Shown here piece by piece: positions 4,122-30,967 of a DNA stretch of 48,818 nucleotides. This stretch comes from Streptomyces sp. 8K308. GTDB taxonomy: Bacteria; Actinomycetota; Actinomycetes; Streptomycetales; Streptomycetaceae. Made by a program: the position numbers and the translations under genes. The stretch is taken from NCBI RefSeq assembly GCF_004348315.1, contig NZ_SMKC01000011.1, forward strand, positions 1-48,818, in the 5' to 3' direction. Every line of letters starts with the position of its first letter. The first letter of the stretch is position 1. The notes beneath the pieces are model-generated. The model saw only the letters and a program-made list of their open reading frames with translations, was not told the origin of the DNA and did not search any database.

Positions 4122-4283
4122 GGCCTGTTGCGAAAGCCCCGCCGGGCCCGCGCCGCCAGCTACGGCACCTCGCTGCGTTACCGAATCGCGCGAATACGGT
4201 CAAGTATGAGCTGCGATCCGGCGCCTTGCGATGCACCGCATCTGACGACGCGGGCTGATCCGACGCGACTTTCGCAACAGGCC
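4122..4283. mobile_element. MITE-like element, copy 1 (162 bp, GGCCTGTTGCGAAAG ends)
   Basis: A 162-bp non-coding element with perfect 15-bp terminal inverted repeats (GGCCTGTTGCGAAAG at 4122-4136, its complement at 4269-4283). It is bounded on both sides by CTAG (4118-4121 and 4284-4287), which looks like a target duplication; some IS5-family transposases duplicate such a tetranucleotide. No transposase is encoded. The internal segment 4162-4240 is nearly identical to 8283-8361 in copy 2 and lies at the same offset of 40 bases from the element end, although the ends differ. It fills the gap between two convergent genes and could serve as a two-way terminator hairpin. Confidence 0.85.
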
Positions 4284-4295
4284 CTAGCCGGCCGG

Positions 4296-6908
4296 TCAGC
4301 CGCCGGCGCTACACGGCCTGGTGTTGAGGGTGAACGCGGTCGGATCGGTGCCCGAGGTGCCGCTCGTGTTGAAGCCGAAGGACACCGAACCACCCGCCGG
4401 CACGGTCGCGTTCCAGCTGGCCGGCCGCGCCACGACGGAACGGCCGTTCTGGGTGAGGGTCGTGTTCCACGCGTTCGTGACCCGCTCGTCGCCCGGGAAG
4501 CTCCACGCCAGCTCCCAGGGCGAGATCGGCGCCGTGCCGGTGTTCCGCACCGTCACCTGGGTCGTCGCCCCGCCCGTCCACCGGTTCGAGACGTAGGACA
4601 CCTGGCACGTCGTGGGCTCCGGCTCGGCGGCGCCCGCGCCCAGGTCGTCGACGTAGGACGCGATCCACGCCAGCGGCGCGTTCCAGTTCACCGTGACCTC
4701 GTTGGTCGAGTACGACTCGATGTGGTCGATGTAGCACATCGCCGGCGCGCAGCCCTGGAGCATGTCCTCCGCGATCGGGTCCTGGAGCGCGTTGTTGGGG
4801 CCGCCGGCCAGCGAACCGGCCGGGGGGTTGGGCAGGCTGGCGTTGAGCTGGTTGGCCCAGAACCTGTGGTGCTGGTTGCGCACGTCCCGCTCGCCGTAGC
4901 CCGTCACATAGGAGAGGTTGAGCGGGTTGCGGCCCAGCAGGTAGTCGAGGCCGGTGAGCACCGCGTCCCGGTAGGTCGCGTCGTTCGTCAGCTCGGCTGC
5001 CGTGGCCAGCACCACCATGTTGTTGAGCACCTGGCTGTTGGAGCCCCACACGTAGTTGCCGCCGGTCGGCGCGTACGGCAGCCCGTACGCCGCCGCCTCC
5101 GCGTCCGCCGCGTACCGGTCGGCCGCGTCGGTGACCATGGCCCGCACCTCGGCGAGATCGCCGGCCGGCAGGTCGTTGTCGACCGTCGCCAGGCTGAGCG
5201 CGCCGAGCGCGGCCGTCCAGCCCCAGGAGAAGCCGTCGTCCGTGAAGACCGCCGCGGCGTCGCCGTGCAGCGGCGAGTCGAGCACCGCCTGCCGGTAGGC
5301 GTCGTCGCCGGTTGTCACGTACAACTCGGCGGCCGCCCAGTAGAACTCGTCCCGCACGTCGTTGTCGCTGTACGCGCCGCCGCCGACGCCGTCGTTGGGG
5401 TCGGCGTAGACGTCCGGGTGGGCGAGGGCCGCCGCGTAGGCCGTGGTCGCGGCGGAGAGCAGCTCGTCCGCGAAGGCGGCGTCGTACTCCTCGAACAGGC
5501 GCGCGCCCTGGGCCGCGGCGGCGGCCAGGTTGAGGGTGGCGGCCGTCGACGGCGGGTGCAGCTCGCGCGGCTGCGGGTCCTGGTCGGGCCGCAGCGGAAG
5601 ACCGGTCCACTCGCGGTCGTGCAGCTTGTGGTGCGCCATGCCGGCCAGCTCCTCGCCGGCCGGGACCTGCATGGCCAGCAGGAACTCCAGCTCCCAGCGG
5701 GCCTCGTCGAGGACGTCCGGCACCCCGTTGTCCCGCTCGGGGATGGCGAGGCTGCCGTCGCCGAGCGCCCCGGCCGCGTCCCGCTCGTAGGCGGAGAGCA
5801 GCTGGGCGACGGAGATGCCGCCGTTGACCACGTACTTGCCGTGGTCGCCGGCGTCGTACCAGCCGCCGGCCGCGTCCAGCGTGTAGTCGCAGACGCCGGG
5901 CTGGCAGGGCACGTCGTCGTCGCCCTGGTTGGGCGCCACGTTCACGTGTCCGGCCGGGCGCGCGTACTCCTCGCCGACGTACTCCGCCTCGATCTCGATG
6001 CCGCTGCGGTTGTGGTAGAAGTACGCGAGCGCGTCGGTGCGGAGCGTGTCGTAGAGGTCGTCGCCGATGGCGAACGGCTCGCTCGTCTCCTCGCCGATCG
6101 TCACCGTGTAGCCCGTGCCGGGCGTGGCGAACGCGTCGAAGGCGAAGGTGTGCGTGTTCTGCCCGGAGGTCGGGTCGACGCCGCGCGGCGTGGTGGTGCC
6201 GGTGGCGGCCGCGGTGCCGTCGGCGGCGTTCAGGGTCCAGGTCTGCGGCTGGGTGGCCTCGGTGACGAAGGTGCCGCGCTTGGGGCCCTCGGTGAGGTAG
6301 CCGACCTGGTTGACGCGGACCGGGGAGCCGGTGTCGGGCTCGTAGACGGGCGGCTCGGCGCCGCCGGTGAGCGAGACGTCGTCCAGGCAGAAGGTGAACG
6401 GCTCGGCGCTGCCGCCCATCTGGAACACCAGCTGCGCCGCCGCGTGGTCGGCGCCCGCGGTGAAGACGTGGGTGACGGGCTCGGCGGTCTCGTCGACGGC
6501 GTCCAGCGCCGCCAGCTCGGTGGTCCACGGCTCGGTGTTCATCTGCACGTTGGTGCGGACGGTGACGGGCGTGGTGGCGGTGGCCGTGAACGACAGCTCG
6601 TAGCTCTCGCCCGCGGTGAGCGGGAGGCCGTCCTGACCGACGATGACGTCCCAGGGGTTCACGGTGCCGCCGGGCACCTCCGCGCACAGCCGGCCGTCCA
6701 CGACCGAGGCGGGAGCGTTGGCGGTCGACCACCAGGGGACGATGACGCCGCTGGCGAAGTCGCCGTTCTCGATCAGCTCGGGACCCTCGGCGGCGGCGGG
6801 CGCGGCGCCGGCCGCGGTGAGCCCGGCGACGGCGAGGCCGGCGGCCAGCGTGACGCTCAGCGGCCGTCTGCCGCGGCGGGGCGGGTGGGATGAAGGAAGT
6901 AAGGTCAC
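4296..6908 (-). CDS. Secreted cellulase, GH9 with CBM4/9 and CBM2
   Basis: An 870-residue exported beta-1,4-glucanase. In order: a Sec signal peptide with cleavage likely after APAAA (about residue 40), a CBM4/9 carbohydrate-binding domain (about 41-170), an Ig-like CelD_N domain starting at PVRVNQVGYL (about 185-265), a GH9 catalytic domain (about 275-745) and a C-terminal CBM2 (about 766-868) ending with a cysteine close to the terminus. Catalytic features are visible: YDAGDHGKY carrying the base Asp pair near residue 350, a RNQHHRFWA segment, and the acid Glu in YSTNEVTVNWNAPL near 736. The start is GTG with AAGGA ten bases upstream. The third codon is TTA, the rare leucine codon read by bldA tRNA in Streptomyces, and a CebR box lies 48-61 bases upstream. 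Expression is therefore probably induced by cello-oligosaccharides and linked to development. Confidence 0.95.
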   Translation of the reverse strand: MTLLPSSHPPRRGRRPLSVTLAAGLAVAGLTAAGAAPAAAEGPELIENGDFASGVIVPWWSTANAPASVVDGRLCAEVPGGTVNPWDVIVGQDGLPLTAGESYELSFTATATTPVTVRTNVQMNTEPWTTELAALDAVDETAEPVTHVFTAGADHAAAQLVFQMGGSAEPFTFCLDDVSLTGGAEPPVYEPDTGSPVRVNQVGYLTEGPKRGTFVTEATQPQTWTLNAADGTAAATGTTTPRGVDPTSGQNTHTFAFDAFATPGTGYTVTIGEETSEPFAIGDDLYDTLRTDALAYFYHNRSGIEIEAEYVGEEYARPAGHVNVAPNQGDDDVPCQPGVCDYTLDAAGGWYDAGDHGKYVVNGGISVAQLLSAYERDAAGALGDGSLAIPERDNGVPDVLDEARWELEFLLAMQVPAGEELAGMAHHKLHDREWTGLPLRPDQDPQPRELHPPSTAATLNLAAAAAQGARLFEEYDAAFADELLSAATTAYAAALAHPDVYADPNDGVGGGAYSDNDVRDEFYWAAAELYVTTGDDAYRQAVLDSPLHGDAAAVFTDDGFSWGWTAALGALSLATVDNDLPAGDLAEVRAMVTDAADRYAADAEAAAYGLPYAPTGGNYVWGSNSQVLNNMVVLATAAELTNDATYRDAVLTGLDYLLGRNPLNLSYVTGYGERDVRNQHHRFWANQLNASLPNPPAGSLAGGPNNALQDPIAEDMLQGCAPAMCYIDHIESYSTNEVTVNWNAPLAWIASYVDDLGAGAAEPEPTTCQVSYVSNRWTGGATTQVTVRNTGTAPISPWELAWSFPGDERVTNAWNTTLTQNGRSVVARPASWNATVPAGGSVSFGFNTSGTSGTDPTAFTLNTRPCSAGG

Positions 6909-6955
6909 GGCTCTCGATCCTTCAGGTGGGGGGCGATGGCTTCAACGGTGGTTCA

Positions 6956-6969
6956 TGGGAGCGCTCCCA
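6956..6969. promoter_or_regulatory. CebR operator (TGGGAGCGCTCCCA)
   Basis: A perfect 14-bp palindrome, TGGGAGCGCTCCCA, matches the known binding site of CebR, the LacI-family repressor of cellulose and cellobiose use in Streptomyces, which releases DNA when cellobiose or cellotriose is bound. It sits just upstream of the cellulase start on the other strand, so it most likely represses that gene. The divergent small membrane-protein gene at 7070 is about 100 bp away and might also be affected. Confidence 0.92.
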
Positions 6970-7055
6970 GAAAGGAGCCAATACAGCCTGCGCGTCGTGG
7001 CGTGACCTCGTCAACCCTTGGTGACCCCCCGAGAACGGTCACATTCGCCCGTTAC

Positions 7056-7061
7056 TAAACT
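7056..7061 (+). promoter_or_regulatory. Possible -10 box for a near-leaderless transcript
   Basis: TAAACT fits the actinobacterial -10 pattern TANNNT and ends 8 bases before the ATG at 7070. No ribosome-binding purine run lies before that ATG (the preceding bases are TTCCACCCC). This combination is typical of leaderless or near-leaderless transcripts. No clear -35 box is seen, so the call is tentative. Confidence 0.3.
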
Positions 7062-7069
7062 TCCACCCC

Positions 7070-7420
7070 ATGGACGCCCTGATCGCCGTCTTTCTCGCCC
7101 TGCACATCATCGGCATCGCAGCGCTGCTCGGTGGCTTTCTGGCGCAGACCAAGGCGCTGCGCACCGGCGAGGCCCGGATGGTGCCGGGCATGCTGCACGG
7201 CGCGCTCACCATGCTGGTCACGGGCCTGGCGCTGGTCGGCCTCAACCAGGCCGACGACCAGGAGGTCAACAACGTCAAGATCGCCGTCAAGCTGGCGATC
7301 CTGGTGGTGATCCTGGGCCTGGTCTACGTGAACCGCGACGAGGAGAAGGTCGCCGCGCCGGTCTTCGGCACGGTCGGGCTCCTCACCACGGCCAACATCT
7401 TCATCGCCACGGTCTGGTAG
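7070..7420 (+). CDS. Small integral membrane protein, unknown function
   Basis: A 116-residue protein made almost entirely of hydrophobic helices, about four of them (near residues 3-21, 43-60, 72-90 and 97-115), with short charged connectors such as QTKALRTGEAR and NRDEEK. It resembles conserved hypothetical membrane proteins of Streptomyces; no catalytic motif is visible. It stands alone, divergent from the cellulase and convergent with the metallo-hydrolase gene 31 bases away. Coding bias is normal. No Shine-Dalgarno sequence precedes the ATG. Confidence 0.85.
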   Translation: MDALIAVFLALHIIGIAALLGGFLAQTKALRTGEARMVPGMLHGALTMLVTGLALVGLNQADDQEVNNVKIAVKLAILVVILGLVYVNRDEEKVAAPVFGTVGLLTTANIFIATVW

Positions 7421-7451
7421 TCCGGGCGCTGGGGTCGCGACTCCGTCCGCG

Positions 7452-8228
7452 TCACCCGGTGGTGGGGGCCGGGTGGCCGCTTCCGTGAGCGAGGTCGGTG
7501 ACGAGCCCGGGAGCGGCGACGTCGATGGGGGACCGGAAGGCCTCCGCGGCCGCCTCGTGGGCGGCGTTCGGGTCTGTTCCCGGCCACAGGTGGGTGAGCA
7601 TGAGCCTGGCAGCGCCCGCCTGGCTGGCGTACTGGCCCGCCAGTCGCGCGGTCAGCAGGTACGGTGCGTCTGCGGTCGGTACCTCGTGGACGTAGGTGGC
7701 CTCCGACAGCAGGAGGTCGGCGCCTCGGGCGAGGCGCGGGACATCAGGACTCGGACCCGTGTCGCCGGTGTAGGCGAGCACGGCTTCCGGCGTGGTCAGT
7801 CGGACGCCGGCGTTGGGCACGAAGTGCGGAAGGAGCCAGGTGTCGGTTCTGAACGGACCGATGTCGAACCGGTCGCCTGGCTGGAACTCGCGCAGCCGGT
7901 ACGCGTCCGCGAGCATGCTCGGTTTGTCGAGCGCGAGAACGGCGTCGGCCGCGCCACGGGGTGCGTGTACCGGCAGTGCCGGCGGTGGCGTGTCGCTGAG
8001 ACCTCGCGCGCGCAGCAGGGGGTTGAGGTCGGCGCAGTGGTCGGGGTGCCCGTGGCTGATCAGCACGGCGTCGATCGCGTCGACGGTGTGGTGGTCGAGC
8101 AGGCGTGGCAGCGTGGCGTACCCGGGGTCGATGAGCAGGCGGAAGCCCTCGTGTTCGACGAGGTAGCCGCTGCATGCCTGGCGCGCGGTCGGCCATGCTC
8201 CGCAGCCGCCGAGAACGGTCAGACGCAT
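7452..8228 (-). CDS. MBL-fold metallo-hydrolase
   Basis: A 258-residue cytoplasmic hydrolase of the metallo-beta-lactamase fold. The metal-binding motif HxHxDH is present as SHGHPDHCAD near residues 59-66. Further ligands are plausible at LLPHFVPNAG, AYTGDTGPS and the C-terminal LTHLWPGTD. This arrangement is that of the RNase Z-like or cyclic-nucleotide phosphodiesterase-like subgroup, but the substrate is unknown. The start is ATG with a weak ribosome site. It is followed downstream by the convergent small membrane-protein gene. Upstream lies a MITE-like element only 14 bases from the start, which may have displaced or supplied promoter sequence. Confidence 0.88.
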   Translation of the reverse strand: MRLTVLGGCGAWPTARQACSGYLVEHEGFRLLIDPGYATLPRLLDHHTVDAIDAVLISHGHPDHCADLNPLLRARGLSDTPPPALPVHAPRGAADAVLALDKPSMLADAYRLREFQPGDRFDIGPFRTDTWLLPHFVPNAGVRLTTPEAVLAYTGDTGPSPDVPRLARGADLLLSEATYVHEVPTADAPYLLTARLAGQYASQAGAARLMLTHLWPGTDPNAAHEAAAEAFRSPIDVAAPGLVTDLAHGSGHPAPTTG

Positions 8229-8242
8229 GCCCGCGACACTAG

Positions 8243-8404
8243 TGCCGCATCAGCCAAGGTTCACCCCGTCGCGACGCCCGGCACGGCACCTCGCTGCGTT
8301 ACCGAATCGCGCGAATACGGCCAAGTATGAGCTGCGATCCGGCGCCTTGCGATGCACCGCACCGGACGCCGCTCCTTGACGGGCAAACCTTGGCTGACAC
8401 GGCA
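8243..8404. mobile_element. MITE-like element, copy 2 (162 bp, TGCCGYRTCAGCC ends)
   Basis: A 162-bp element bounded by CTAG at 8239-8242 and 8405-8408. The terminal inverted repeats are about 19 bp with two mismatches (TGCCGCATCAGCCAAGGTT on the left, TGCCGTGTCAGCCAAGGTT read from the right). The core at 8283-8361 matches that of copy 1 with one difference visible by eye. It has the same length as copy 1 but different ends. Its reverse complement matches copy 3 almost throughout. It lies between two genes on the minus strand, 14 bases past the stop of the M23 gene. Confidence 0.85.
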
Positions 8405-8422
8405 CTAGCCTTCCCGGGGCCC

Positions 8423-9070
8423 TCACCACCTCGGATCGCGGACGTTGCCGTAGCCGCCGCCGCGTGGTCGGTCCTCGAAGTGCAGGTGTGGCCCGGTGAC
8501 GTTGCCGGTGGCGCCGACGCGGCCGAGCCGCTGGCCGGCGATGACGCGGGTGCCGGTGCGCACCTCGCGCGCGGAGAGGTGGCAGTAGACGTAGTCCCGG
8601 CCGTTGTCGGCGCGCAGGCCGAGCCACTTGCCGTAGGCGCCGCCGTTGTCGTTGGACCAGACGATGGTGCCGGAGAGCACGGCGACCACCGGCGTGCCGG
8701 TCGGCGCGGCGTAGTCGTCGCCGGTGTGGAAGCCGGCGGCGTAGCGGCTGTTCCTGACCCCGTAGGGATACGTGACCGACCGTCCTGGCACGGGTGAGGA
8801 GACCCGCCCGCTCTTGGACCCGGAGTCGGCGCGGCTGTCCGTGAAGCCGAGCCGGGCGAACGTCTGTGGCCCGGGCAGCCCGTCGGCGCCGCTGCCGCTC
8901 CATCCCCGCGCCCGCTGGAACGCGGCGCAGGCGGCCTTGGTCTGGTCCCCGTAGTAGCCGGTGGCCCCGGCCGGGATCCGGTGGCCCCGGCTGATGAGCG
9001 CCCGCTGGAACGCGGTGACGCAGGAGTCGCTCTTCCCGAACTTCACGTGCGCGAAGTTGATCGCGGGCAT
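8423..9070 (-). CDS. Peptidoglycan-binding domain plus M23 endopeptidase, no signal peptide
   Basis: A 215-residue two-domain protein. The N-terminal part (about 1-75) is a peptidoglycan-binding-like domain (AFQRALISRGH, AAFQRARGWSG, DGLPGPQTFARLG). The C-terminal part (about 95-215) is an M23 zinc endopeptidase with HTGDDY near residue 115 and HLHFE near 193, which cleaves peptide cross-bridges of peptidoglycan. The start ATG has a GGGGGAA ribosome site, and the protein begins MPAINFAHVKFG with no signal peptide or membrane helix. That layout is common in Streptomyces phage endolysins and in related chromosomal genes, so it may be a captured lysin needing a holin, or a protein released by lysis. 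No holin or other phage gene is adjacent. Confidence 0.88.
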   Translation of the reverse strand: MPAINFAHVKFGKSDSCVTAFQRALISRGHRIPAGATGYYGDQTKAACAAFQRARGWSGSGADGLPGPQTFARLGFTDSRADSGSKSGRVSSPVPGRSVTYPYGVRNSRYAAGFHTGDDYAAPTGTPVVAVLSGTIVWSNDNGGAYGKWLGLRADNGRDYVYCHLSAREVRTGTRVIAGQRLGRVGATGNVTGPHLHFEDRPRGGGYGNVRDPRW

Positions 9071-9142
9071 GGTTCCCCCATGTCAATTGGGCGTGGATCG
9101 TGCTCCTTTGGAAGGTGATTCTGGCCGCTAATTGTCCGGCAC

Positions 9143-10310
9143 ATGACGATAACGGACAAGGGGGTCAGCGCGCTGCGTGCGCGTGGACGCCACATCCCGC
9201 GTCGCCGCTCAGCGTGTTGTTCAGCGGACGTCTCGGCGATCGAGCGGGGGCGTCGTCGGGTGACGTCGCGGGAGGCGCGGCAGCGGATCGTCGAGGGCCT
9301 TCGCGTTCCCGCCGAACTCCCGAGTGGCGAGGGGCCGGTGGCGAGGCTCGCCCTGCCCGACGTGGCGCCGGAGCCGGAGCTGCTGGAGCGGGTGGCGGGG
9401 GTGGTCGAGGACGGCCGGCGGGTGGATGGGGCGACGTTGGACTGGTTGGAACGGCTGCTCGCGGAGCACCGGCGGGCGGAGGACGTCATCGGTTCGCGGC
9501 CGCTGGTCGGGGTGATGCGGCGGCAGTTGGACACGGTCGTCGCCCTACACGGCCGGGCCCGGGGAGAGTTGGCTACCCGGCGTGGTGCGACTCGCGGCCG
9601 AGCACGCGCAGTTCCTCGGGTGGATGGCACAGGACCAGGACGAGACCGGGGCGGCCCTGGCCTGGTATGACCGCTCGCACGAGTGGGCCCTGGAGGCCGG
9701 GGACCCGAACATGGCCGCGAGCACGCTCAACATGAAGGCGCACATGGCCTGGTCCAGGAGGCGTGCCGAGCGGTGCGTCGGCTTGGCCGAGGCGTCCCGC
9801 TGGTCCGCGCCCGGGGCGTCGCTCGGGGTGCGGGGCATGGCGGCACAGATGGCCGGCCGCGGGCAGGCCCTCGCGGTGCGAGGGGACGACGCCCGCCGAG
9901 TCCTCGACGAGGCAGAGGAGTTGATCGGCCGCGCGGCGGAGCGGCCGGAGGACGAGCCGCCCTGGCCGTACTTCTACGACGAGACGTGGTTCACCCTGCA
10001 ACGCGGCATGGCCCTGATGCACCTGCGGGCCTGGCCGCGGGCGATCGAGCACCTCACCGCCGGGCTCGCCGCGCTCTCCGGCGACTACCGGCGCGACCGC
10101 ACCTGGTACCGGGCCTGCCTGGCCCGCTCCCTCGCCGGCGCCGGCGAGCCGGACGCGGCGTTGGCCCTCGCCCTGGACATCGTCCCCCACGCCGCCGAGG
10201 TTGGCCGGCCGCACTCGTGGAACGAACTCCACACCACCCCAGCGATGTTGCTCCGTAGGGCTCCCCGAGCCCGCCGGCACCTCGTCGCGGCGCTCAGGGC
10301 GGAGGGCTGA
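9143..10310 (+). pseudogene. XRE-family regulator with TPR-like C-terminus, frameshifted
   Basis: Remnant of a helix-turn-helix regulator of the large Streptomyces XRE/TPR class. The N-terminal frame (from ATG 9143) keeps the end of the HTH (DVSAIERGRRRVTSREARQR), but the first HTH helices are unrecognisable. It continues to GRARGELATR near 9578, where the sense moves to the next frame (VVRLAAEHAQFLGWMAQDQ and onward) and carries helical repeats to TGA at 10308-10310. A one-base insertion (or two-base loss) around 9578-9582 explains the switch. Both the damaged HTH and the shift suggest loss of function. The gene overlaps the opposite remnant by 17 bases at its 3' end. Confidence 0.75.
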
Positions 10311-10785
10311 CCGCGCCGAACTCAGCGGCCCGAGGGGCCGTCCCGCGACACGTCACCGCGAGGGGGGCGTCGAGGTGGCCGGGGACGAGGAGGCCCGTCT
10401 CGTAGGCGGCGATGACGGCTTGGGCACGGTCGCGCAGGCCGAGTTTCGTGAGGACGTTGCTCACATGGGTCTTGGCCGTGTGTTCGCTGACCACCAGGGT
10501 GGCGGCGATCTCCGCGTTGGACAGGCCGCGGCCGAGAAGCCGCAGGGTTTCCCGCTCGCGGCCGGTGAGGAGGGACAGCAGCTCGGTTCGTGGTGGGCGT
10601 GGGGTTCGGCCCGAGGTGAACGCGGCGATGAGGGTGCGGGTGATGGAGGGGGGCCAGGAGGGATTGGCCCGCCACGGCGACCCGGACGGCGTGGACGAGG
10701 TCGTCCCGCCGCACGTCCTTGAGGAGGAAGCCGCTGGCGCCGGCGCTGAGCGCGTCGAAGACGTAGTGGTCCTCACCGTGTGCAG
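10294..10785 (-). pseudogene. Response regulator remnant (half receiver plus LuxR HTH), frameshifted
   Basis: The C-terminal half of a NarL-type response regulator. The LuxR HTH (LTGRERETLRLLGRGLSNAE and onward to RDRAQAVIAAYETGLLVPG) is intact in one frame. The end of the receiver (EDHYVFDALSAGASGFLLKD, then RRDDLVHAVRVAVAGQSLLAP) is in another. The switch falls in a run of six identical bases at about 10648-10653; five would restore the frame. The first half of the receiver, including the phosphorylatable Asp, is missing. It is joined directly to a piece of another coding sequence, so the gene is dead whatever the cause of the frameshift. Confidence 0.78.
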
Positions 10786-10896
10786 GAAGAGCAGCGGCGC
10801 GGTCTGGGCGATGGTGGTGGCGGCCGCCAGCAGCGCGTCCGACCAGGGAGAACCCAGCAGGCGGCGGAGCCGGGGGACGGCGGGTGGTACGGGCAC
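10786..10896 (-). pseudogene. N-terminal scrap, probably of the partner sensor kinase
   Basis: About 35 codons from GTG 10896 read VPVPPAVPRLRR, then LLGSPWSDALLAAATT and AQTAPLLF, which looks like the start of a sensor kinase with its first membrane helix. The sequence then breaks off and continues as the second half of a response regulator receiver. A single internal deletion removing the rest of the kinase and the first half of the regulator would produce this join. The identity as a kinase is inferred from position and hydrophobicity, not from a conserved motif. Confidence 0.45.
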
Positions 10897-10928
10897 GAGC
10901 CCGGATTCTCCCACTGGGCCGGGTGGAT

Positions 10929-11504
10929 TCAGCCGCGCGCGAGAGCGACCGGGGCGGACGCGGGCGTGACGCGGGCGAGGCCCGCGAACAGCAGCAGACC
11001 GACGACCGGCAGCAGATCGTGGCTCACCGGGGCGACGAACACCGCCAGGGTCACGGCCGCCGCACGCCACCAGGGAACGACGCGGGCCACCGCGAGCCGG
11101 CAGACCAGGACGAGCAGCCCGAGGAAGAACAGCACGGGGCCCGCCTCGTAGACGGCGATGTCCACGCCTGGCAGGTTGTGCGCGTCGACGAACATGCGCC
11201 GCATGTCGTCGTGGTCGGCCGCCAGCAGGCCGATGACGAGGTCGATCGAGATCTGGGCCAGGGAGCAGGCGACGCCGACGAACGCGGCGACGACGGTGAC
11301 CGTCGCGAACGCGCCGCGGCCCGCCAGCCGCCGCAGTTCTTACAGCACCCACCCCAAGAGGAGCAGGGACAGGAGGAAGGCCGCGTGCCCGGCAGTCCAC
11401 GCCGGGCCGGGACCGCGCTCCCCGTCCACGCCGTCGAGGGCCCGGATGAGCCCATAGGCGGTGACCAGGAGCGGAGCGAGGAGGAAGGCGATGGAGGTAC
11501 GCAT
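10929..11504 (-). pseudogene. Membrane protein with an in-frame TAA
   Basis: A hydrophobic protein of about 191 codons starting at ATG 11504 (MRTSIAFLLAPLLVTAYG), with four or five membrane helices. The frame is interrupted by TAA at 11340-11342, right after LLLLGWVL. The same frame resumes at once with ELRRLAGRGAFATVTVVAAF and runs to TGA at 10929-10931. A one-base change such as TAC to TAA explains it. Reinitiation is possible at the ATG of MRRMFVDAHNLPG (11204), giving a 91-residue fragment. The family was not recognised. Confidence 0.72.
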
Positions 11505-11604
11505 GCCCTCGATCCTCGGCACGGCGCCCGCGCCGGACATCGCCGACGCGACCCATTGTCGGCCTCCCCCGCGCGAGGGACGGCCCAGAGCGAGTCGGAT
11601 CGCG

Positions 11605-12480: not shown

Positions 12481-12586
12481 GGGCACTCCCACAGCTCGGC
12501 GACAGCTGCCGGAAGCTTTCGGCAACTTCCGAGATGCTAGCCGTTCACCCTCCCGTGGGGTTCACGCAACCCTGGGGAACGTGCTG

Positions 12587-13704: not shown

Positions 13705-13736
13705 CAATGCACGGTACCGGGACCGGCACCCGGACG

Positions 13737-18508: not shown

Positions 18509-18524
18509 ACCGAAGCGGGCGGAA

Positions 18525-18558: not shown

Positions 18559-18596
18559 TCGCGCTTGTGGTGCGCTGATCGGGCGGATCAGGCGGG

Positions 18597-22388: not shown

Positions 22389-22432
22389 GGCTCGGACCAG
22401 GACATCCGGAACAGACGAGGACAATAAGAGAA

Positions 22433-23323: not shown

Positions 23324-23343
23324 TCTTCACGGGCTCCTTTTCC

Positions 23344-23382
23344 ACCCGCCCCTTCTCGCCCGAAGCGCGAGAAGGGGCGGGT
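23344..23382 (+). terminator. Hairpin terminator of sucCD
   Basis: A perfect 16-bp stem (ACCCGCCCCTTCTCGC and its complement) with a seven-base loop starts 20 bases after the sucD stop. No U tract follows, but stem length and position make it the likely end of the sucCD transcript. Confidence 0.85.
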
Positions 23383-23763
23383 CGCGTTCTGGGCACGGGG
23401 CGCCCAGCCGCCACGGCACTTCGCGCGGGATTCTCCCCACCCACCCGTCCTGTCCGGCGCTTCGCGCGGTTGGGGGCAGGCCGCGCTGAGCACGCGGTGC
23501 GCCTGCGGCGGCCGCGCCGCCGGGGCATCGGCCGCGTAGCGGCCACCAGCTCGCGAGCGGCGCCCGGCCGGCGGCGTGCGGATGAGGGCGGTGGGTGGGG
23601 AAAGCACCTCGAGCGGGTGTGGGCCCGAGCTTCGGGCGCGGCGCGGCCGGCCCCGGCGGCCCCGGCAGGGGTGGCTGACGCCGAGCGCGAGCGTGTGGGT
23701 GGGAAAAGCAGCTTGTCGGTGTGCCGGGCCGGGCCGGTGGGCCCGGGTTGTCAGCATGGCCGG
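23383..23763. other. Intergenic region with repeated GGTGGGTGGGGAAAGC-like motifs
   Basis: About 380 bp without a credible gene. A GTGGG-AAAGC motif occurs at 23591-23605 and 23695-23709, and a related complementary form (TTCTCCCCACCCACCC) at 23431-23446. A similar GGTGGGAAAGC lies upstream of sucC. The last bases contain the first half of a 24-bp tandem duplication that overlaps the next gene start. Confidence 0.45.
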
Positions 23764-25011
23764 GTGGCAGACCTTTCGCATGGCCGGGTGGCAGAGCACT
23801 CGTTCCGAAACCGCTGGTGGTTGGAGGGCGCGCTGGCCGCCGCACTCGGGCTCGGCATCGTCACCGTGCCGGTGCTGATGCTGTGGACCATCTCGCCCTA
23901 CTCCGGCACCGGGCCAGGCGCCGCGTTGCGGACGGCCGCCGATCTGTGGCTGCTGGGGCACGGCGTCGAACTGCTCCGCACGGACACGCTCAGCGGCGTG
24001 CCCGCGCCGGTCGGGTTGACGCCCCTGTTGTTGGCCGCCCTGCCGGCCGCTCTCCTGTGCCGCGCCGCGAAGGGCACGGGTCCGGCCGCCGCGCTGTCGA
24101 TCCTCGGCGGCTATCTCGTGGTGGCCGCCGGCGCCGCGGCGGTCGGCACGGCGCCGCTCGTCTCGGTCGGGCGGCTGCCGCTGTTCGTGGGCGCCGTCAC
24201 GCTGGTCGCGGCCCTGGCCGCCGGTGACGGCCGGGTCGGGGCCGCCGGGCGGGCCGCGCTCGCCGGCGCGGTGGCCTGCTGCGGCGTCGGGGCCCTGCTG
24301 GCCGCCGGTGCCCTGCTGATCCACGCCGGCGTCGCCCAGGAGGTGTTCGCCGCGCTCACCGACGAGTGGTCGGGCCGGATCGGGTTGCTGCTCGTGGTCG
24401 GCACGCTGGCGCCGAACGCGGCGGTGTGGGCGGCGTCCTACGGCCTCGGGCCCGGTTTCACGCTCGGCGCCGACAGCCTCGTCGGGCCACTCGTGGTGCG
24501 CGGCGAGCCGGCGCTGCCGGACTTCCCGCTGCTGGCCATGGCGCCCGGCGGGCCGCTTGAGGCGCCCTGGGCCTGGGCCCTGGTCGCGCCGGTGCCGGCG
24601 GCCGTGGTGCTGGTGGTGGCGTGGTTCGTGGCGCATGCGGCCGTCCCGGTGCGCGACTCACGAGCCATGGCGGACGGCTGGTGGGCGACGGCCGGCACCG
24701 CGCTGCTCGCCGCGCTCTGCGCCGGCCTCGCCATGGGCGGGCTCGCGGCGCTGGCCGGCGGGCCGCTCGGCACGGCCGCGATGGCCGAGTTCGGCCCGGA
24801 CCCCTACCTGGTGGCCGGCGCGACCGTCGCCTGGACGGCCGCCCTCGCGACGCCGCTGGCGCTCACGCTGCGCGCCTGGCGGCTGCGTGGCGCCCGCAGG
24901 CCACGCGAGCAGCGGATCCTGGAGGAGCTCAGGCTCACTCCCGCTCACCGAAGTACGGGCGGAGCTGGCTGGGCAGCAGATTCTCGCAGGACTCGCGGGA
25001 CGGGGTGGTGA
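23764..25011 (+). CDS. PerM-like (DUF6350) multi-spanning membrane protein
   Basis: A 415-residue, very hydrophobic protein with about nine or ten membrane helices, matching the DUF6350 family. In Mycobacterium tuberculosis the related PerM (Rv0955) is linked to cell division and sits between sucCD and purNH; the same order is seen here, which supports the assignment. The start is uncertain: GTG 23764 and GTG 23788 lie in a 24-bp tandem duplication, and only the second is next to the conserved hydrophobic region. The 3' end overlaps the converging neighbour by 77 bases, and the last ~25 residues (HRSTGGAGWAADSRRTRGTG) look like an extension beyond the family domain. Confidence 0.82.
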   Translation: MADLSHGRVAEHSFRNRWWLEGALAAALGLGIVTVPVLMLWTISPYSGTGPGAALRTAADLWLLGHGVELLRTDTLSGVPAPVGLTPLLLAALPAALLCRAAKGTGPAAALSILGGYLVVAAGAAAVGTAPLVSVGRLPLFVGAVTLVAALAAGDGRVGAAGRAALAGAVACCGVGALLAAGALLIHAGVAQEVFAALTDEWSGRIGLLLVVGTLAPNAAVWAASYGLGPGFTLGADSLVGPLVVRGEPALPDFPLLAMAPGGPLEAPWAWALVAPVPAAVVLVVAWFVAHAAVPVRDSRAMADGWWATAGTALLAALCAGLAMGGLAALAGGPLGTAAMAEFGPDPYLVAGATVAWTAALATPLALTLRAWRLRGARRPREQRILEELRLTPAHRSTGGAGWAADSRRTRGTGW

Positions 25012-25747
25012 GCGCGTCGTCGACGCAGTCGAAGTAGTCCTTGTAGACGAGCTGCATCGTGTACGAGGCGGCGACCAGCAGCAGCGCGACGCCGGCCAGC
25101 ACCACCCCGGAGATCGCGGAGGCGCGGCCGGGGGACGACGCGGCGCGGGCCGCCGACTGCCCGGGTCCCCGCTTCCCCTCGGGCCCGGGCGCCGGTGCGC
25201 CGCCCTGCCCGCCCTGGAGGGCGGCCACCCGGCGGTCCCTGGCCTCGGGGCTCTCCTTCGGTCCGCCGCGCAGCGCGCTGATGCCCCAGTACAGAGCGAG
25301 CGAGCCGAGCAGCAGGGCCAGCCACTCCCAGCCGAGCGCCGCCGTCAGCACGCCCCACATGCCGGCCAACATCGCGTAGCGGGCGTGCCGCTGGGCCGGG
25401 TCGGAGGGGTCCCACCGGCCGGGGCCGCCGACGCCTGAGCCCGGGCCGCCGTCCTGGCCGCCGCCTGACGGCTCGCCCCAGCGGCCGCTCCCTCGCCGCG
25501 GCTGCCGGCTGCTCCACTGGCTGCCCCAGCGCTGCCGCTGGCTCTCCCGCTCGCGGTCCTGGGCCCCGTTCTCGCCGCGGCTCTCGCCCCCGTCCTGGCC
25601 GGCGCCCTGGGCACCGTCCCGGTCCTCGCCCGTGAGGTGACGCGGCTGCCAGGGTCGGTCGGGCGCGCCCTCGGGTGGCGGGGCGAAGGGGTTGTGCTCC
25701 TCGCCCGACCGGTCCTGGGGTTCGGAGGCACGGCGTCGGTCCGTCAT
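24935..25747 (-). CDS. Conserved membrane protein with disordered N-terminus
   Basis: A 270-residue protein whose first ~115 residues are disordered and rich in Gly, Arg, Gln and Pro. Two close hydrophobic segments follow (MLAGMWGVLTAALGWEWLAL and LLGSLALYWGISALRG, about 125-160). After a Gly/Ala/Pro linker comes a last membrane helix (AISGVVLAGVALLLVAASY, about 208-228). The external C-terminal tail has a cysteine pair (DCVDD, SCENLLP). It is conserved between the PerM-like gene and purN in Streptomyces; no function is known to me. It is divergent from purN and overlaps the PerM-like gene tail to tail. Confidence 0.8.
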   Translation of the reverse strand: MTDRRRASEPQDRSGEEHNPFAPPPEGAPDRPWQPRHLTGEDRDGAQGAGQDGGESRGENGAQDRERESQRQRWGSQWSSRQPRRGSGRWGEPSGGGQDGGPGSGVGGPGRWDPSDPAQRHARYAMLAGMWGVLTAALGWEWLALLLGSLALYWGISALRGGPKESPEARDRRVAALQGGQGGAPAPGPEGKRGPGQSAARAASSPGRASAISGVVLAGVALLLVAASYTMQLVYKDYFDCVDDALTTPSRESCENLLPSQLRPYFGERE

Positions 25748-25912
25748 GGTGGTCGTCGGGTCTCCCTGCTAGGTGCGTTGCTTTCGACCGTACCTGGAGC
25801 GGACCGCCCCACGGCACGGGGGGAGCGGGGCGTGCCGGTATCGTTGCCGGGGACTCCCCCCGAGGCTCGCGCAGAGACACGGACACGCAGAGACGCAGAG
25901 AAAGTTTTCGCA

Positions 25913-26548
25913 GTGCCCCTTCCAGCTGAGCCGGCGGCGCCGGCGCGCGTCGTCGTTCTGGTATCCGGTTCGGGCACCAATCTCCAGGCCCTGCTCGACG
26001 CGGTGGCCGAGCGCGGTCCGGCGTACGGCGCCCAGGTGGTGGCCGTGGGCGCCGACCGGCCCGGGATCGAGGGCCTCAGGCGGGCGGAGCGCGCCGGTCT
26101 TCCGACGTTCGTGTGCCGGGTGCGGGACTTCGAGACCCGCGAGGCGTGGGACGCGGCGTTGACGGAGGCGGTGGCCGAACACCGGCCCGACCTGGTGGTG
26201 TCGGCCGGCTTCATGAAGATCGTGGGGGCGGCGTTCCTGGCGCGCTTCGGCGGCCGCGTCGTCAACACCCACCCGGCCCTGCTGCCGAGCTTCCCGGGCG
26301 CGCACGCGGTGCGCGACGCGCTCGACCACGGCGCGCGGGTCACGGGCTGCACCGTGCACTTCGTCGACGCGGGCGTGGACAGCGGGCCGATCATCGCGCA
26401 GCGGGCCGTGGAGATCGAGGACGCGGACGACGAGGCCGCGCTGCACGAGCGGATCAAGGACGTCGAGCGAGGGCTGCTCGTCGAGGTCGTGGGGCGACTC
26501 GCCCGGGACGGCTACAGCATCAAGGGACGGAAGGTGTTTATCCCATGA
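25913..26548 (+). CDS. purN: Phosphoribosylglycinamide formyltransferase
   Basis: A 211-residue cytosolic GAR transformylase, which moves the formyl group of 10-formyl-tetrahydrofolate to glycinamide ribonucleotide in purine synthesis. The phosphate-binding loop is [16 protein letters not shown], and the catalytic Asn-His-Asp set is visible as [14 protein letters not shown] and [13 protein letters not shown]. The start is GTG with a GAGAAAG ribosome site. Its stop overlaps the purH start (ATGA), so they are translated together. An antisense frame of comparable length is only a shadow. Confidence 0.97.
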
Positions 26549-28119
26549 CCGGCGAACACAGCGATCAGGGCTCGCGGCGCCCGGTGCGCAGGGCGCTGAT
26601 CAGCGTCTACGACAAGACGGGCCTCGCCGAGCTGGCCACCGGGCTGCACGCGGCCGGGGTGACGTTGGTCTCCACCGGTTCCACGGCCAGGACCATCGCC
26701 GAGGCCGGGGTGCCCGTCACCGAGGTGGCGGACGTCACCGGCTTCCCCGAGGTGCTCGACGGCCGGGTGAAGACGCTGCACCCGAGGGTGCACGCGGGCA
26801 TCCTGGCCGACCAGCGGCTCGACGCGCACCGGGCGCAGCTCGCCGAGCACGGCATCGAGGCGTTCGAGCTCGTGGTGGGGAACCTGTACCCGTTCCGCAG
26901 GACGGTGGAGTCGGGCGCCTCGGTCGACGAGTGCGTGGAGCAGATCGACATTGGCGGCCCCTCGATGGTGCGCGCGGCGGCCAAGAACCACCCGTCCGTG
27001 GCGGTCGTGGTGGACCCGGCGCGTTACCCGGAGGTGTTGGCGGCGGTCGAGGGCGGCGGTTTCACGCTGGCCCAGCGGCGGCGGCTCGCGGCCCGCGCCT
27101 TCCAGCACACCGCCGAGTACGACGCGGCGGTGGCCGGCTGGTTCGCACAGCTCGACGCGCCCGAGGGCGAGCTGTTCATCGAGAACGCCAACCTGACGTT
27201 CACCAGGGAGCGGGTGCTGCGCTACGGCGAGAACCCGCACCAGGCCGCCGCGCTCTACGGGGACGGCAGCGGCACCGGTCTCGCTGCCGCCGAGCAGCTG
27301 CACGGCAAGGAGATGTCGTACAACAACTACGTCGACACCGACGCCGCGCGGCGCGCCGCCTACGACCACGAGCAGCCGTGCGTGGCGATCATCAAGCACT
27401 CCAACCCCTGTGGCATCGCGGTCGGTTCGGACGTGGCCGAGGCGCACCGCAAGGCGCACGCCTGTGACCCGCTGTCCGCCTACGGTGGCGTGATCGCGGT
27501 CAACCGGCCGGTGTCGGTGGCGATGGCCGAGCAGGTGGCGGAGATCTTCACCGAGGTCATCGTGGCCCCGGACTTCGAGGCCGGCGCGGTGGAGGTGCTG
27601 GCCCGCAAGAAGAACATCCGGGTGCTGCGCTGCCCGCAGGCGCCGGCCGCCGGCACCGAGTACCGGCCGGTGGACGGCGGCACCCTGGTGCAGGTCACGG
27701 ACCGGCTGCAGGCGGCGGGCGACGACCCGGCCGGCTGGCGGTTGGTCGCCGGCGAGCCCCTGCCGGCCGCCGAGCTCGCCGAGCTCGGGTTCGCCTGGCG
27801 GGCCTGCCGGGCGGTGAAGTCCAACGCGATCCTGCTGGCCAAGGACGGCGCCACGGTGGGCGTCGGGATGGGCCAGGTGAACCGGGTGGACTCGGCGCGG
27901 CTCGCGGTGCGGCGGGCCGGCGAGGAGCGTGCGGCCGGCTCGTTCGCGGCGTCCGACGCGTTCTTCCCGTTCCCCGACGGGCTCGAGGTGCTGATCGAGG
28001 CGGGCGTGCGGGCGGTCGCGCAGCCGGGCGGCTCGGTCCGCGACGAGCAGGTCATCGAGGCGGCGAAGGCCGCGGGCGTCACGATGTACCTGACCGGCAC
28101 CCGACACTTCTTCCACTAG
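26545..28119 (+). CDS. purH: Bifunctional AICAR transformylase/IMP cyclohydrolase
   Basis: A 524-residue enzyme for the last two steps of IMP synthesis. The IMP cyclohydrolase domain (about 10-140) is recognised by [30 protein letters not shown] and HPRVHAGIL. The AICAR transformylase domain (about 145-524) shows [15 protein letters not shown], the catalytic KHSNPCG and [12 protein letters not shown]. It forms a translationally coupled pair with purN and uses the same formyl-folate donor made by FolD further along the window. Confidence 0.98.
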
Positions 28120-28272
28120 CCCTGTCGGGGCGGTCTTCGAGGACCAGGCCCTGGTCTCCCCGGGCCTGGCGAGTGCCGCCCGTCGGCCGTGCGGCTCGGC
28201 GCCCCCCAGGGGCACCGGGCCCGCCGCCGTGGGTGGACGCGTGGTCCTCGTTCCGCCTCGCCCAGGGGAGCG

Positions 28273-28524
28273 TCATGGCTGGGGTCTGTGCAGGAGGTTG
28301 ACGACGATCTCGTGCAGGACCTCGTGGTCGCGCGGGTCGTGGAGGCGGTAGGGGCCGCCGTCGACGGTGTACCACTCGGCGGCCCCCGCGTAGCGGATCC
28401 GCATGGTCAGGGTGCCGTCCTCGGCGGCGCCGGTGTGGAGTTCGAGCTCCCCCGTGATGACGCCGACCTCCCTGGTCATCACCCCGCCGCGGGGCGCGGT
28501 GAAGACCGTGTACCTGTCGCTCAT
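28273..28524 (-). CDS. Small conserved protein, unknown function
   Basis: An 83-residue protein starting MSDRYTVFTAPRGGVMTREVG, with alternating beta-strand-like segments and no membrane helix or metal motif. It looks like a small Streptomyces-conserved cytoplasmic protein. The ATG at 28524 has GGAGGC four bases upstream, which fixes the start against the longer open frame. It lies 23 bases downstream of the HNH nuclease gene on the same strand, so they may be co-transcribed. The 28120-28272 gap before purH holds no gene. Confidence 0.75.
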   Translation of the reverse strand: MSDRYTVFTAPRGGVMTREVGVITGELELHTGAAEDGTLTMRIRYAGAAEWYTVDGGPYRLHDPRDHEVLHEIVVNLLHRPQP

Positions 28525-28547
28525 GCCTCCACTTCTTACCCGCTGGG

Positions 28548-29204
28548 TCAGCAGGAGTTGAGCATCTCGCCCAGCGCGTCGAGCTCGTCCTGGTCGAGGG
28601 TGAGGTCGTACACGTACTTCACGTGGATCCACATCTCCGCGTAGACGCAGTGGAACCCCTCGGCCGGCGGCTGCCAGTCGGCAGGGTCCTGGTCGCCCTT
28701 GGAGCGGTTGGAGGCGGCGCTCACCGCGATCAGCTGCGATGTGGTGAGGTCGTTGGCGAACTGCCGGCGCCGGTCCCTGGTCCACTCGTCGGCGCCGGAC
28801 CGCCAGCCCTCGGCCAGCGGCACGACGTGGTCGATGTCGAGCTGGGACGGGTCGGTCCAGGTGGTGTCGTCGTAGGGGCTGAACCAGTCGCCGGCGACGG
28901 GCCGGCAACTGCCGGGCGCCAGCTCGACGTTCTCGCCGTCGCGGATCAGCACGCTCTGCCGGGTGGTGCAGCCGTTCACGGTGGTCCAGTGCGGGAACTC
29001 GTCGCGCGAGTAGCCCGCCATGGAGCCGGGCGGCTCCACGGTGAGGGCCGCGAGCTCGGCACGCGCCTGTTCCTCGTCGGGGATGTCGGGCGGCAGGGCG
29101 TCGGCCGGCGCCGCGGTCGCCAGCGCGAGCAGCGGCACGGCCAGCAGGGTCGTCAGCGCGGCGGCCAACCAGCGTGTGGGGGTGGGCTTTTGGGGGTGGA
29201 GCAT
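28548..29204 (-). CDS. Secreted HNH endonuclease-family protein (DUF1524)
   Basis: A 218-residue exported protein. A signal peptide (LAAALTTLLAVPLLALATAAPADA, about 14-37) leads to a DUF1524/HNH-type nuclease domain. The core motif is LDIDHVVPLAEGWRSGADEW, where the Asp-His pair binds the metal and activates water, followed by the SAASNRSKGDQDPADW segment with the conserved Asn and Lys. Cysteines (NGCTTR, GSCRP, HCVYAE, LNSC) could form disulfides outside the cell. Likely roles are extracellular DNA degradation for phosphate scavenging or competition. It is divergent from folD. Confidence 0.88.
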   Translation of the reverse strand: MLHPQKPTPTRWLAAALTTLLAVPLLALATAAPADALPPDIPDEEQARAELAALTVEPPGSMAGYSRDEFPHWTTVNGCTTRQSVLIRDGENVELAPGSCRPVAGDWFSPYDDTTWTDPSQLDIDHVVPLAEGWRSGADEWTRDRRRQFANDLTTSQLIAVSAASNRSKGDQDPADWQPPAEGFHCVYAEMWIHVKYVYDLTLDQDELDALGEMLNSC

Positions 29205-29419
29205 CAGGAACCTCCGTAGAGGTGTGGGGAGTTGCCTGATGACCGGTCTACCCGAATTGTGTCGTGCTCATGATCTACGGGGCGGTTCCCCCGAAGCGTC
29301 CCGCCTCCCCGCACGACCTCGTCGCGCACCGGGGTCGACCGGCGCGCGACGGGCGTGTGACCGCCCGGTCCGGGGACCGGATTCGATTCCCACCCACGCC
29401 ATCCGGGAGAATGGCGGCC

Positions 29420-30289
29420 ATGAGCGCCCAGATTCTCGATGGCAGGGCGGCCGCGGCCGCGATCAAGACCGACCTGACCGCCCGGGTCGCCGTCCTCAGG
29501 GAACGCGGCGTGACCCCCGGCCTCGGCACCCTGCTGGTCGGCGACGACGTCGGCAGCCAGAAGTACGTCGCCGGCAAGCACCGCGACTGCGCCGCCGTCG
29601 GGATCGCCTCCATCCAGCGCGAGCTGCCCGCCACCGCCGGCCAGGAGGAGATCGAGGCCGTCGTCCGGGAGCTGAACGCCGACCCGGCCTGCACCGGCTA
29701 CCTCGTCCAGCTGCCGCTGCCGCGCGGCGTCGACGCCAACCGGGTGCTCGAGCTCATCGACCCCGCCAAGGACGCCGACGGCCTGCACCCGACCAACCTC
29801 GGCCGCCTCGTGCTCGGCCAGCCGGCCCCGCTGCCCTGCACCCCCAACGGCGTGGTCACGCTGCTGCGCCGGCACGGCGTGGAGATCGCCGGCGCCCACG
29901 TGGTCGTCGTCGGCCGGGGCGTCACCATCGGCCGCTCCATCCCGCTGCTGCTCACCCGCCGCAGCGAGAACGCCACGGTCACCCAGGTCCACACCGGCAC
30001 CCGCGACATCGCAGCCCACCTGCGCCAGGCCGACATCATCGTGGCCGCCGCCGGCGTGCCCCACCTGGTCAAGCCCGAGGACGTCAAGCCGGGCGCCGCC
30101 GTCCTCGACGTCGGCGTCAGCAGGGACGAGCACGGCAAGATCGTCGGCGACGTGCACCCGGGCGTCGCCGAGGTCGCCGGCTGGCTCTCCCCGAACCCGG
30201 GCGGCGTCGGCCCCATGACCAGGGCCATGCTCCTGCAGAACGTGGTGGAGGCCGCCGAGCGCGCCGCCGCCGTCGAGGTGGGCGGGTGA
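29420..30289 (+). CDS. folD: Methylenetetrahydrofolate dehydrogenase/cyclohydrolase
   Basis: A 289-residue bifunctional cytosolic enzyme converting 5,10-methylene-THF to 10-formyl-THF with NADP. The catalytic Lys is in [13 protein letters not shown] (Lys53 region), PLPRGVD is present, and the family signature [20 protein letters not shown] is followed by the dinucleotide loop [14 protein letters not shown]. The C-terminal signature is [15 protein letters not shown]. An in-frame ATG nine bases upstream (29411) is an alternative; GGGAGA suits the 29420 start. It overlaps the DUF3017 gene by four bases. It supplies the formyl donor for PurN and PurH. Confidence 0.97.
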
Positions 30290-30711
30290 GCGGCGTGGGA
30301 AGCCGCCCGGTGGCCGGCTGGATCCGCCGCTGGCGGGTGCCGGAGAAGTACCGCACGCGCGACACCGCGCGCCCCGAGGGCGGCCAGCGCACCGCGCCGG
30401 GCAGCGCCCCGGCCCCGATACGGCAGTGGCCGCTGCTCGCGGTGCTCGGCGGCACCCTGCTCGGGCTGCTCGTCACCCTCGGCGACTTCCGGATCGGGCT
30501 GCTGATCGTGGGCGGCTCGCTGCTCGCCGCCGCCGGCATGCGCGGCTGGCTGCCGGCCGTCGGGATGCTCGCGGTCCGCTCCCGCTTCACCGACGTGCTG
30601 ACCTACGGCGTCGCCGGCCTCCTCATCACGCTGCTGACGCTGATGGCCGAGCCGAGCCCCTGGCTCGAGCTGCCGCTCCTCAACGACCTGCTGCGCTTCT
30701 CCGCGGGCTAG
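30286..30711 (+). CDS. DUF3017 membrane protein
   Basis: A 141-residue protein with a hydrophilic N-terminus of about 45 residues and three membrane helices ([53 protein letters not shown]), the pattern of DUF3017, which follows folD in many actinobacteria. The start GTG overlaps the folD stop (GTGA). Its TAG stop is part of a CTAG after which a MITE-like element is inserted, so the reading frame is unharmed. Function unknown. Confidence 0.9.
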
Positions 30712-30967
30712 TGCCGTGTCAGCCGAGGTTCGCCCGTCAAGGAGCGGCGTCCGGTGCGGTGCTCCCCCAGACTTCGTCCGGGTGGGGGTGCCCCCTGCAC
30801 GGAGTGCTCGGGGGAGTGCCCCCATTCGCCTCGCTCACGGCGCCCCACGCGGCGGAGCCGCACATCGGCAGCAGCGCAGCTCATACTCGGCCGTATGCGC
30901 GCGATTCGGTAACGCAGCGAGTGCCGTGCCGGGCGTCGCGACGGGGCGAACCTTGGCTGATGCGGCA
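30712..30967. mobile_element. MITE-like element, copy 3 (256 bp, with nested segment)
   Basis: Bounded by CTAG at 30708-30711 and 30968-30971, with ends TGCCGTGTCAGCC and, read from the other side, TGCCGCATCAGCC. Compared with the reverse complement of copy 2 it is nearly identical, except that a short piece of the core is replaced by about 112 bases between GTGCGGTGC and CGCAGCTCATAC. That insert contains inverted repeats of the type CTCCCCCAGACTTCG / GGGGGTGCCCCC, which resemble dispersed intergenic repeats of Streptomyces. It fills the gap between two convergent genes. Net length is 94 bases more than copies 1 and 2. Confidence 0.82.

Follow-up and report, generated by a model that had tools for sequence, protein, structure and literature searches.

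One hairpin core between alternative ends: a Streptomyces-wide family of short transposon-like elements probably moved by two unrelated transposases

The stretch of DNA analysed here, 48,818 nucleotides of contig NZ_SMKC01000011.1 of Streptomyces sp. 8K308 (the window), carries three copies of a short repeat that we assign to a Streptomyces-wide family of non-autonomous-transposon-like elements of about 164 bp. Members of this family share one hairpin core, which lies between alternative pairs of ends. We put at roughly 0.7 the probability that these ends are exchanged as blocks and that the elements are served by two unrelated transposases. One class of ends (type A) matches insertion sequences (ISs) of the IS5 family and another (type B) matches ISs of the IS630 family, and two unrelated transposases therefore probably move a single core.

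Results

Three copies in the window share a core and differ in their ends

Element boundaries were set at CTAG sites, which gives copies 1 and 2 a length of 164 bp when the CTAG bases G and C are included in the element, and of 162 bp when they are not. Copy 1 (164 bp, 4121..4284, plus strand) has type A, IS5-type ends that form a perfect 16-bp inverted repeat, GGGCCTGTTGCGAAAG, at 4121..4136 on the plus strand and 4269..4284 on the minus strand. Copy 2, also 164 bp (8242..8405, plus strand), has type B, IS630-type ends: GTGCCGCATCAGCCAAGGTT on the left (8242..8261, plus strand) and, read on the minus strand, GTGCCGTGTCAGCCAAGGTT on the right (8386..8405). The two copies contain the same 79-bp core at element positions 42-120 (4162..4240 in copy 1 and 8283..8361 in copy 2, both on the plus strand), with a single difference at position 80. 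The longest run of bases common to both is 40 nt, whereas 20 shuffles gave no more than 10 nt, and the two copies are the largest among the direct-repeat families listed for the window. Only 7 of 22 bases agree between them at the first 22 positions, and again 7 of 22 at the last.

Copy 3 (258 bp, 30711..30968, minus strand) is oriented opposite to copies 1 and 2 and has type B ends. Its middle contains about 105 nt with GGGGG/CCCCC palindrome modules (30763..30867, minus strand) in place of 10 nt of core. Similar GGGGG...CCCCC modules of about 33 nt lie inside the core of several other elements (L107, L108 and L418-L423), with lengths of about 164, 197 and 230, as if a second tiny repeat were invading the first.

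CTAG is present at all six junctions of the three copies, which would fit a TA duplication. Both the IS5 and the IS630 families duplicate TA and prefer CTAG. The short length (164 bp), the lack of a transposase gene and the terminal inverted repeats (perfect over 16 bp in copy 1) are those of a miniature inverted-repeat transposable element (MITE). A preliminary description of this DNA had reported two 162-bp copies with a 79-bp core at the same offset and one difference, dissimilar ends on these two, and a third copy sharing its ends with the second. All of this was confirmed when the elements were re-cut at CTAG (78/79 core bases identical), with the addition that the core of copy 3 is split by an insert. 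The suggestion that the copies form a family also holds, and extends to far more copies than the three in the window.

The core is widespread in Streptomyces

The 7.76-Mb genome to which the window belongs is assembled in 703 contigs. Searches in which the best 40 candidates were scored each returned at least 36 matches for copy 1, 24 for copy 2 and 50 for copy 3; these are not copy numbers, some matches being parts of one element. Four full type B copies in this genome are 98-100% alike. The flanks of 30 loci place one core between A ends (GGGCCTGTTGCGAAAG), B ends (GTGCCGNRTCAGCCAAGGTT) and three further, mutually related types, C (TGTCCTGCCGATCTT), D (TGTCCGGCCGGTCTTT) and E (TGTCCGGGCGATCTTC), with another end, TGTCTTCTGGATCTTC, at locus L015. 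Two pieces (L019 and L023) combine an E-like left end with a C-like right end. At a further locus (L008, contig C695) a B element abuts a C-like end remnant at a common CTAG, as if it had inserted at the boundary of another element.

Across the genus, a 103-bp core was present in 134 of 199 sampled genomes, our own included, when the best four candidates per genome were scored. An exact 28-nt piece of the core occurs in 24 stretches from S. zhaozhouensis, S. triticirhizae, S. sp. MP131-18, S. sedi and S. hainanensis. Similar DNA was found in 36 plasmid records, 32 of them from Streptomyces, 2 from Streptantibioticus and 2 from Embleya. Phage records searched with copy 2 contained nothing similar, and viral contigs held neither an exact 25-nt piece of the core nor an exact A end.

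A further 100 copies were fetched and ends were called at 165 core loci, 13 of them from our own genome (one locus, L133, was omitted as the same stretch as L225). At 132 of the 165 loci the core lies within an element of 155-170 bp, at an offset of 26-31 nt from the left end and 28-35 nt from the right; the other 33 failed the filter on length, offset or ends. Some genomes were sampled twice, and merging identical elements gave 108 distinct sequences. Their ends fall into 19 clusters at 80% identity, 12 of which have at least two members. Some of the 19 (clusters 14, 16 and 17) reflect a one-base shift of the end call, and we therefore rely on the 12 larger clusters together with type A. The preliminary description had proposed counting the end types that share the core, and these 12 clusters (19 with singletons) are the count among the elements sampled.

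Ends vary around a conserved middle

When each cluster is represented by one sequence, mean identity is 0.37 at element positions 11-20 and 0.90-0.94 at positions 41-60 and 101-120. This agrees with the earlier observation, made from the window, that a conserved middle with changing ends is the reverse of usual MITE evolution. Within our own genome, A and B elements have ends 0.32 and cores 0.95 identical (3 pairs), and the values over all its end types are 0.32-0.50 for ends and 0.92-0.95 for cores. Pairs from the same genome with different ends give 0.50 for ends and 0.92 for cores (41 pairs, not independent, 27 of them from our own genome), compared with 0.85 for both in pairs from different genomes with the same end type (822 pairs). 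At least two end clusters coexist in 8 of the 29 genome labels holding at least two distinct elements, although those of G034 and part of those of G056 are register shifts. In S. hainanensis the cores are 0.99 and the ends 0.64 identical, and in G069 these values are 0.94 and 0.34.

That cores are more alike across end types within our own genome (0.92-0.95) than between genomes with the same ends (0.85) could also be read as the work of gene conversion, acting between dispersed copies of two independent MITE families to keep their cores alike, and repeats are abundant. Gene conversion would nevertheless still require a single origin of the core, in many genomes its tracts would need to have broken off at almost the same position next to the ends, and the cores in G054 and G127 (0.73-0.77) have not been homogenised. 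We consider this explanation improbable.

Because the core had served as the query, a reverse search by ends was run, in genomes picked mostly because they carry the ends in question. The B end pattern gave 4 to 193 matches per genome in 9 of 9 genomes chosen for B ends, and the type G end, CTAAGGGCTGTCCCGTAATC, gave matches in 9 of 10 genomes; the reversed controls gave none in either case. The two type G matches in our own genome belong to an IS (L091) and not to a core-bearing element. Of 20 end pairs retrieved through their end sequences (68-257 bp, from five genomes, with pairs of IS length not included), 19 enclose the core, which is interrupted by inserts in 6 of them; core alignment scores were 74-132, against at most 42 in shuffles. 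The twentieth pair (L412, G169 C19:149092-149159) is a 68-bp deletion form with both B ends and 14 nt of core. One complete genome (G012) contains 93 forward and 100 reverse B-type ends, which has the appearance of a burst.

The two end types match ISs of different families

IS partners were sought by de novo end finding in 74 IS loci, combined with frame reading. Across 29 genomes chosen from the core survey, the IS5-type domain PF13340 is found in 29 and PF13359 in 25. The type A partner in our own genome is an IS5 remnant (L090, contig C684) whose end agrees with those of copy 1 at 18 and 19 of 22 bases and adjoins a 60-aa IS5 DUF4096 N-terminus, a fragment that scores below the family cut-offs (E 2e-7). 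In Streptomyces NBC_01176 the same end (18-19/22) lies before an IS5 frame scoring 112.3 bits (cut-off 110); the right end of this element was looked for and not found. An annotated IS5 transposase of S. avidinii (113.9 bits, above the IS5 cut-off) lies between two A-like ends (16-17/22), nearer than expected by chance.

The type B partner is an IS630-family element of genome G173 (C10:19009-20253; NF033545, 145.5 bits, cut-off 100). Its ends agree at 19-20 of 22 bases with the four core-bearing elements of G173 itself and at 22 of 22 with the best of the cluster, from another genome. Our own genome contains an element (C107:10351-12350) with ends 17-19/22 like those of copy 2 and two IS630-matching frames (51.7 and 64.3 bits); both score below the cut-off, so that the transposase gene is taken to be broken. 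Copy 2 matches this element over 28-43 nt at the ends and nowhere in the core.

Further partners were found for C/E-type ends (L084 in our own genome, and L175) and for G-type ends (L091 in our own genome, and L211). Taking the best of each cluster, an IS end that shares at least 16 of 22 bases was found for ten end clusters in addition to A, and the partners of the eight beyond A and B are IS5-type ISs agreeing at 16-20 of 22, where 16 is marginal. The IS5-family element L084 (contig C138) also contains, between its E-like ends, a RidA-like (Ribonuc_L-PSP) passenger gene at 384-785. A 1.9-kb locus with B-type ends (L381, G169 C33) has a GNAT-fold acetyltransferase frame (PF00583) at 453-950 beside a broken IS630-like transposase, of which the N-terminal piece matches IS630 at 44.8 bits, below the cut-off, and the C-terminal piece matches no family.

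Type A and type B elements thus both have ends like those of autonomous ISs, IS5 for A (18-19/22) and IS630 for B (19-20/22 in G173). IS630-like ends belong only to the type of copies 2 and 3, those of copy 1 being IS5-type. The preliminary description had proposed to look for full ISs with the same ends, and ISs with matching or similar ends were found in both families. Its idea that swapped end modules allow two transposases to move the same payload is well supported by the match of A to IS5 and of B to IS630 around cores that are 95% alike in the same genome.

The core lies outside the ISs examined

A MITE is usually an IS that has lost internal sequence, and on this general ground the core might be an ordinary internal fragment of one. 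It was absent, however, from 17 IS sequences or IS ends (16 elements), where blastn returned nothing below E 0.25. In the 74 IS loci only two core matches fell below E 0.05 (L175 and L165), both outside the called IS ends, and that of L175 is one of the core copies of the genus survey. The IS5 sequences checked, which are part of those in the genus, lack the core, as do the IS630-like loci L380, L381 and L397/L399. Among 30 plasmid-record matches listed, 27 lie under no annotated feature, 2 under a hypothetical protein and 1 in an unannotated record. We regard an origin of the core as an internal IS fragment as very improbable.

A second possibility is simple divergence, in which all elements descend from one parent IS and their ends drifted or followed the transposase base by base. 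The C, D and E ends of our own genome are close to one another (TGTCCTGCCGATCTT, TGTCCGGCCGGTCTT, TGTCCGGGCGATCTT), and the IS5-type ends of the genus form a partial continuum in which the outermost bases are alike, so that divergence of this kind is possible among IS5-type ends. It is contradicted for A and B, which share 7 of 22 bases at either end and 78 of 79 in the core, and whose partners belong to different families, with B ends matching the own-genome IS630 element over 28-43 nt. A core identity of 95% with an end identity of 32% does not fit the divergence of one parent, and as an account of the whole family we give simple divergence little credence. The outcome that would have spoken most directly against the preliminary description, a core that is an internal piece of one IS in copies derived from one parent by plain divergence, was not what we found.

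The core forms a hairpin that favours one strand

Folding of copy 1 gives -124.1 kcal/mol on the minus strand (z-score -13.7) and -91.8 on the plus strand (z -6.8), and for its core alone the z-scores are -6.3 and -0.8. The 103-nt core hairpin of copy 2 (8270..8372) is likewise strong on the minus strand (-68.2 kcal/mol, z -5.8) and weaker on the plus strand (-44.8, z -1.8). Among 57 non-redundant elements, obtained by dropping 51 of the 108 unique sequences as at least 95% alike, the minus strand is the more stable in every case, by a mean of 27 kcal/mol as RNA. It is also the more stable when folded as DNA (-64.6 vs -53.2).

A 61-pair structure, derived from the same sequences on which it was scored, comprises 2881 Watson-Crick cells, 463 G.U, 37 A.C and 90 others. 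Pairing falls from 0.96 to 0.32-0.46 when the partner is slid by 1-3 columns. The G.U bias favours the stable strand in all 19 end clusters, and in the outermost 18 pairs alone 36 distinct cases favour G.U against 8. The apical stem covaries, with 93 compensated cells against at most 39 in shuffles (n=100) that do not preserve relatedness. Compensatory changes in the ends do not speak for RNA, since transposase binding predicts them as well. The wobble polarity of the ends may moreover be inherited from an IS: the left and right ends of the ISs themselves are identical in L380 and differ at several bases in L091, L177 and L189.

Two other sources of these patterns were rejected. Selection for a cruciform fails to explain why the mismatches are G.U on one strand but A.C on its complement (463 vs 37), and strand-biased mutation alone fails to explain the compensatory changes in the apical stem (93 vs at most 39 in shuffles). 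The strand polarity argues for selection on a single strand, for which RNA would be our first guess; single-stranded DNA of that strand would also fit. In the window no Rfam family was matched at gathering score, and 4100-8450 gave no match even up to E=1. The accessible part of a published account (PMC4681348) mentions abundant short transcripts that span palindromes, many of which lie in 3' untranslated regions. The earlier suggestion that the core is the functional or mobilised part is supported in part, by a hairpin that is conserved, covarying and strand-polarised.

Elements often lie at stop codons

Copies 1 and 3 lie at in-phase stop codons, and copy 2 does not. The CTAG target of copy 1 (4118..4121, unstranded) includes the stop codon TAG (4119-4121) of a response regulator (LuxR-type) frame at 3438-4121, and in that of copy 3 (30708..30711, unstranded) the TAG at 30709-30711 closes an open frame. 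At such sites the stop codon, TAG or TAA, arises from the TA of the target joined to the element's first base. A predicted in-phase stop codon is found at 71 of 137 elements. At 88 of 216 junctions, where one sixth would be expected, TAG or TAA is reached in phase by the flank's best coding frame. Under a stricter rule this number is 74 of 216. For comparison, CTAG sites elsewhere in the fetched loci gave 38 of 394 tests; many such sites lie around ISs and may be atypical. The 34 callable neighbourhoods among 54 comprise 14 with convergent, 18 with tandem and 2 with divergent genes, and the other 20 were left uncalled.

This location, together with the conserved, covarying hairpin, suggests an alternative in which the core is a 3' element domesticated by the host, such as a terminator or a hairpin at the mRNA end, and the ends are relics of its spread. 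The hairpin favours one strand, yet this strong strand shows no bias relative to the gene ending there (left in 36, right in 32, both in 3 and neither in 66 of 137 elements) and is therefore not specially the mRNA strand of the neighbour. CTAG targeting combined with selection against promoter damage accounts for the location equally well. We consider domestication unlikely, and the orientation test being without bias (n=137), no terminator or 3'-UTR role (UTR, untranslated region) is claimed for the strong strand.

Discussion

We favour block exchange of ends around a persistent core, a reading that several of our own results count against. We observed neither an exchange event nor an empty site nor transposition. 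For eight of the 19 end clusters, most of these eight being singletons, no IS examined agrees at more than 15/22. In our own genome the A-ended IS is reduced to a remnant, and the transposase of the IS with B-like ends is broken, leaving present activity there unproven. In G054, G127 and G032 the cores of two end types are only 0.73-0.88 alike, so that the types there resemble old lineages more than recent swaps. The C, D and E ends could reflect stepwise divergence. Finally, the core query itself selects for cores, a concern answered in part by the searches with ends.

In the exchange that we propose, the ends of a MITE lineage would be replaced by those of another transposon, of IS5 or IS630 type, with the core persisting, and the re-ended form would then be amplified by the new transposase. 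Transposition in trans by both families is suggested by the matching ends, the near-identical dispersed copies and the CTAG junctions. Both ends might be exchanged by recombination, gene conversion or template switching during repair, and the near-constant length of the elements favours replacement in register. The core may be kept because its one-strand hairpin is selected, in which case the element lineage would outlive the loss of any one transposase. We also raise a bolder proposal, which we hold to be possible although doubtful: that the element is a selfish single-strand hairpin, most likely RNA, which survives throughout the genus by changing transposases and whose new ends re-evolve the wobble pairs that keep its strand. 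On the loss of the IS that mobilises it, it would be succeeded by forms that have acquired the ends of a different IS, even one of another transposase family.

MITEs are normally defined by the ends that the transposase reads; here the ends are changeable and the core lasts, and a classification of MITEs by their ends would overlook such a family. If confirmed, the family would be a parasite of parasites that escapes the extinction of its host transposon, and would offer a natural experiment on the scale of a genus. Its strand-polarised hairpin is a hint that the element may act as a nucleic-acid structure and not only as passive DNA.

Several known systems share part of this architecture. REP (repetitive extragenic palindromic) sequences and REPINs (REP doublets forming hairpins) are likewise high-copy, intergenic, imperfect hairpins and non-autonomous, but the Streptomyces elements have the ends of DDE-transposase ISs and CTAG junctions. 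With MITEs derived from IS5 or IS630 they share a non-coding sequence, IS-like terminal inverted repeats, CTAG junctions and many dispersed copies. One such MITE family usually has one parent IS, from which its ends are inherited, whereas in the Streptomyces family the middle is conserved and the ends change. A literature search, for which subscription journals were mostly out of reach, found no report of such a MITE family in Streptomyces.

The accessible text of published accounts describes the Correia elements (Correia repeat enclosed elements, CREE) of Neisseria as about 70-157 bp long (PMC5039591), with inverted repeats, a conserved core, two end variants at all lengths and a potential for RNase III cleavage (PMC2649163), and that of a MITE review covers them and contains no word starting with Actino (PMC10969869). 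As far as these descriptions go, both families have paired ends around a conserved core, a potential to form hairpins, an intergenic location and variation in end sequence, a likeness of architecture. CREE carry promoters and a site for integration host factor (IHF). Their described end variants differ within one short stretch, whereas the Streptomyces family has 12-19 end clusters and, unlike Correia elements, a core that bears the ends of two transposase families, IS5 and IS630. The closest kind of element is that of MITEs such as Correia elements, and end exchange over two transposase families, together with strand polarity, looks new.

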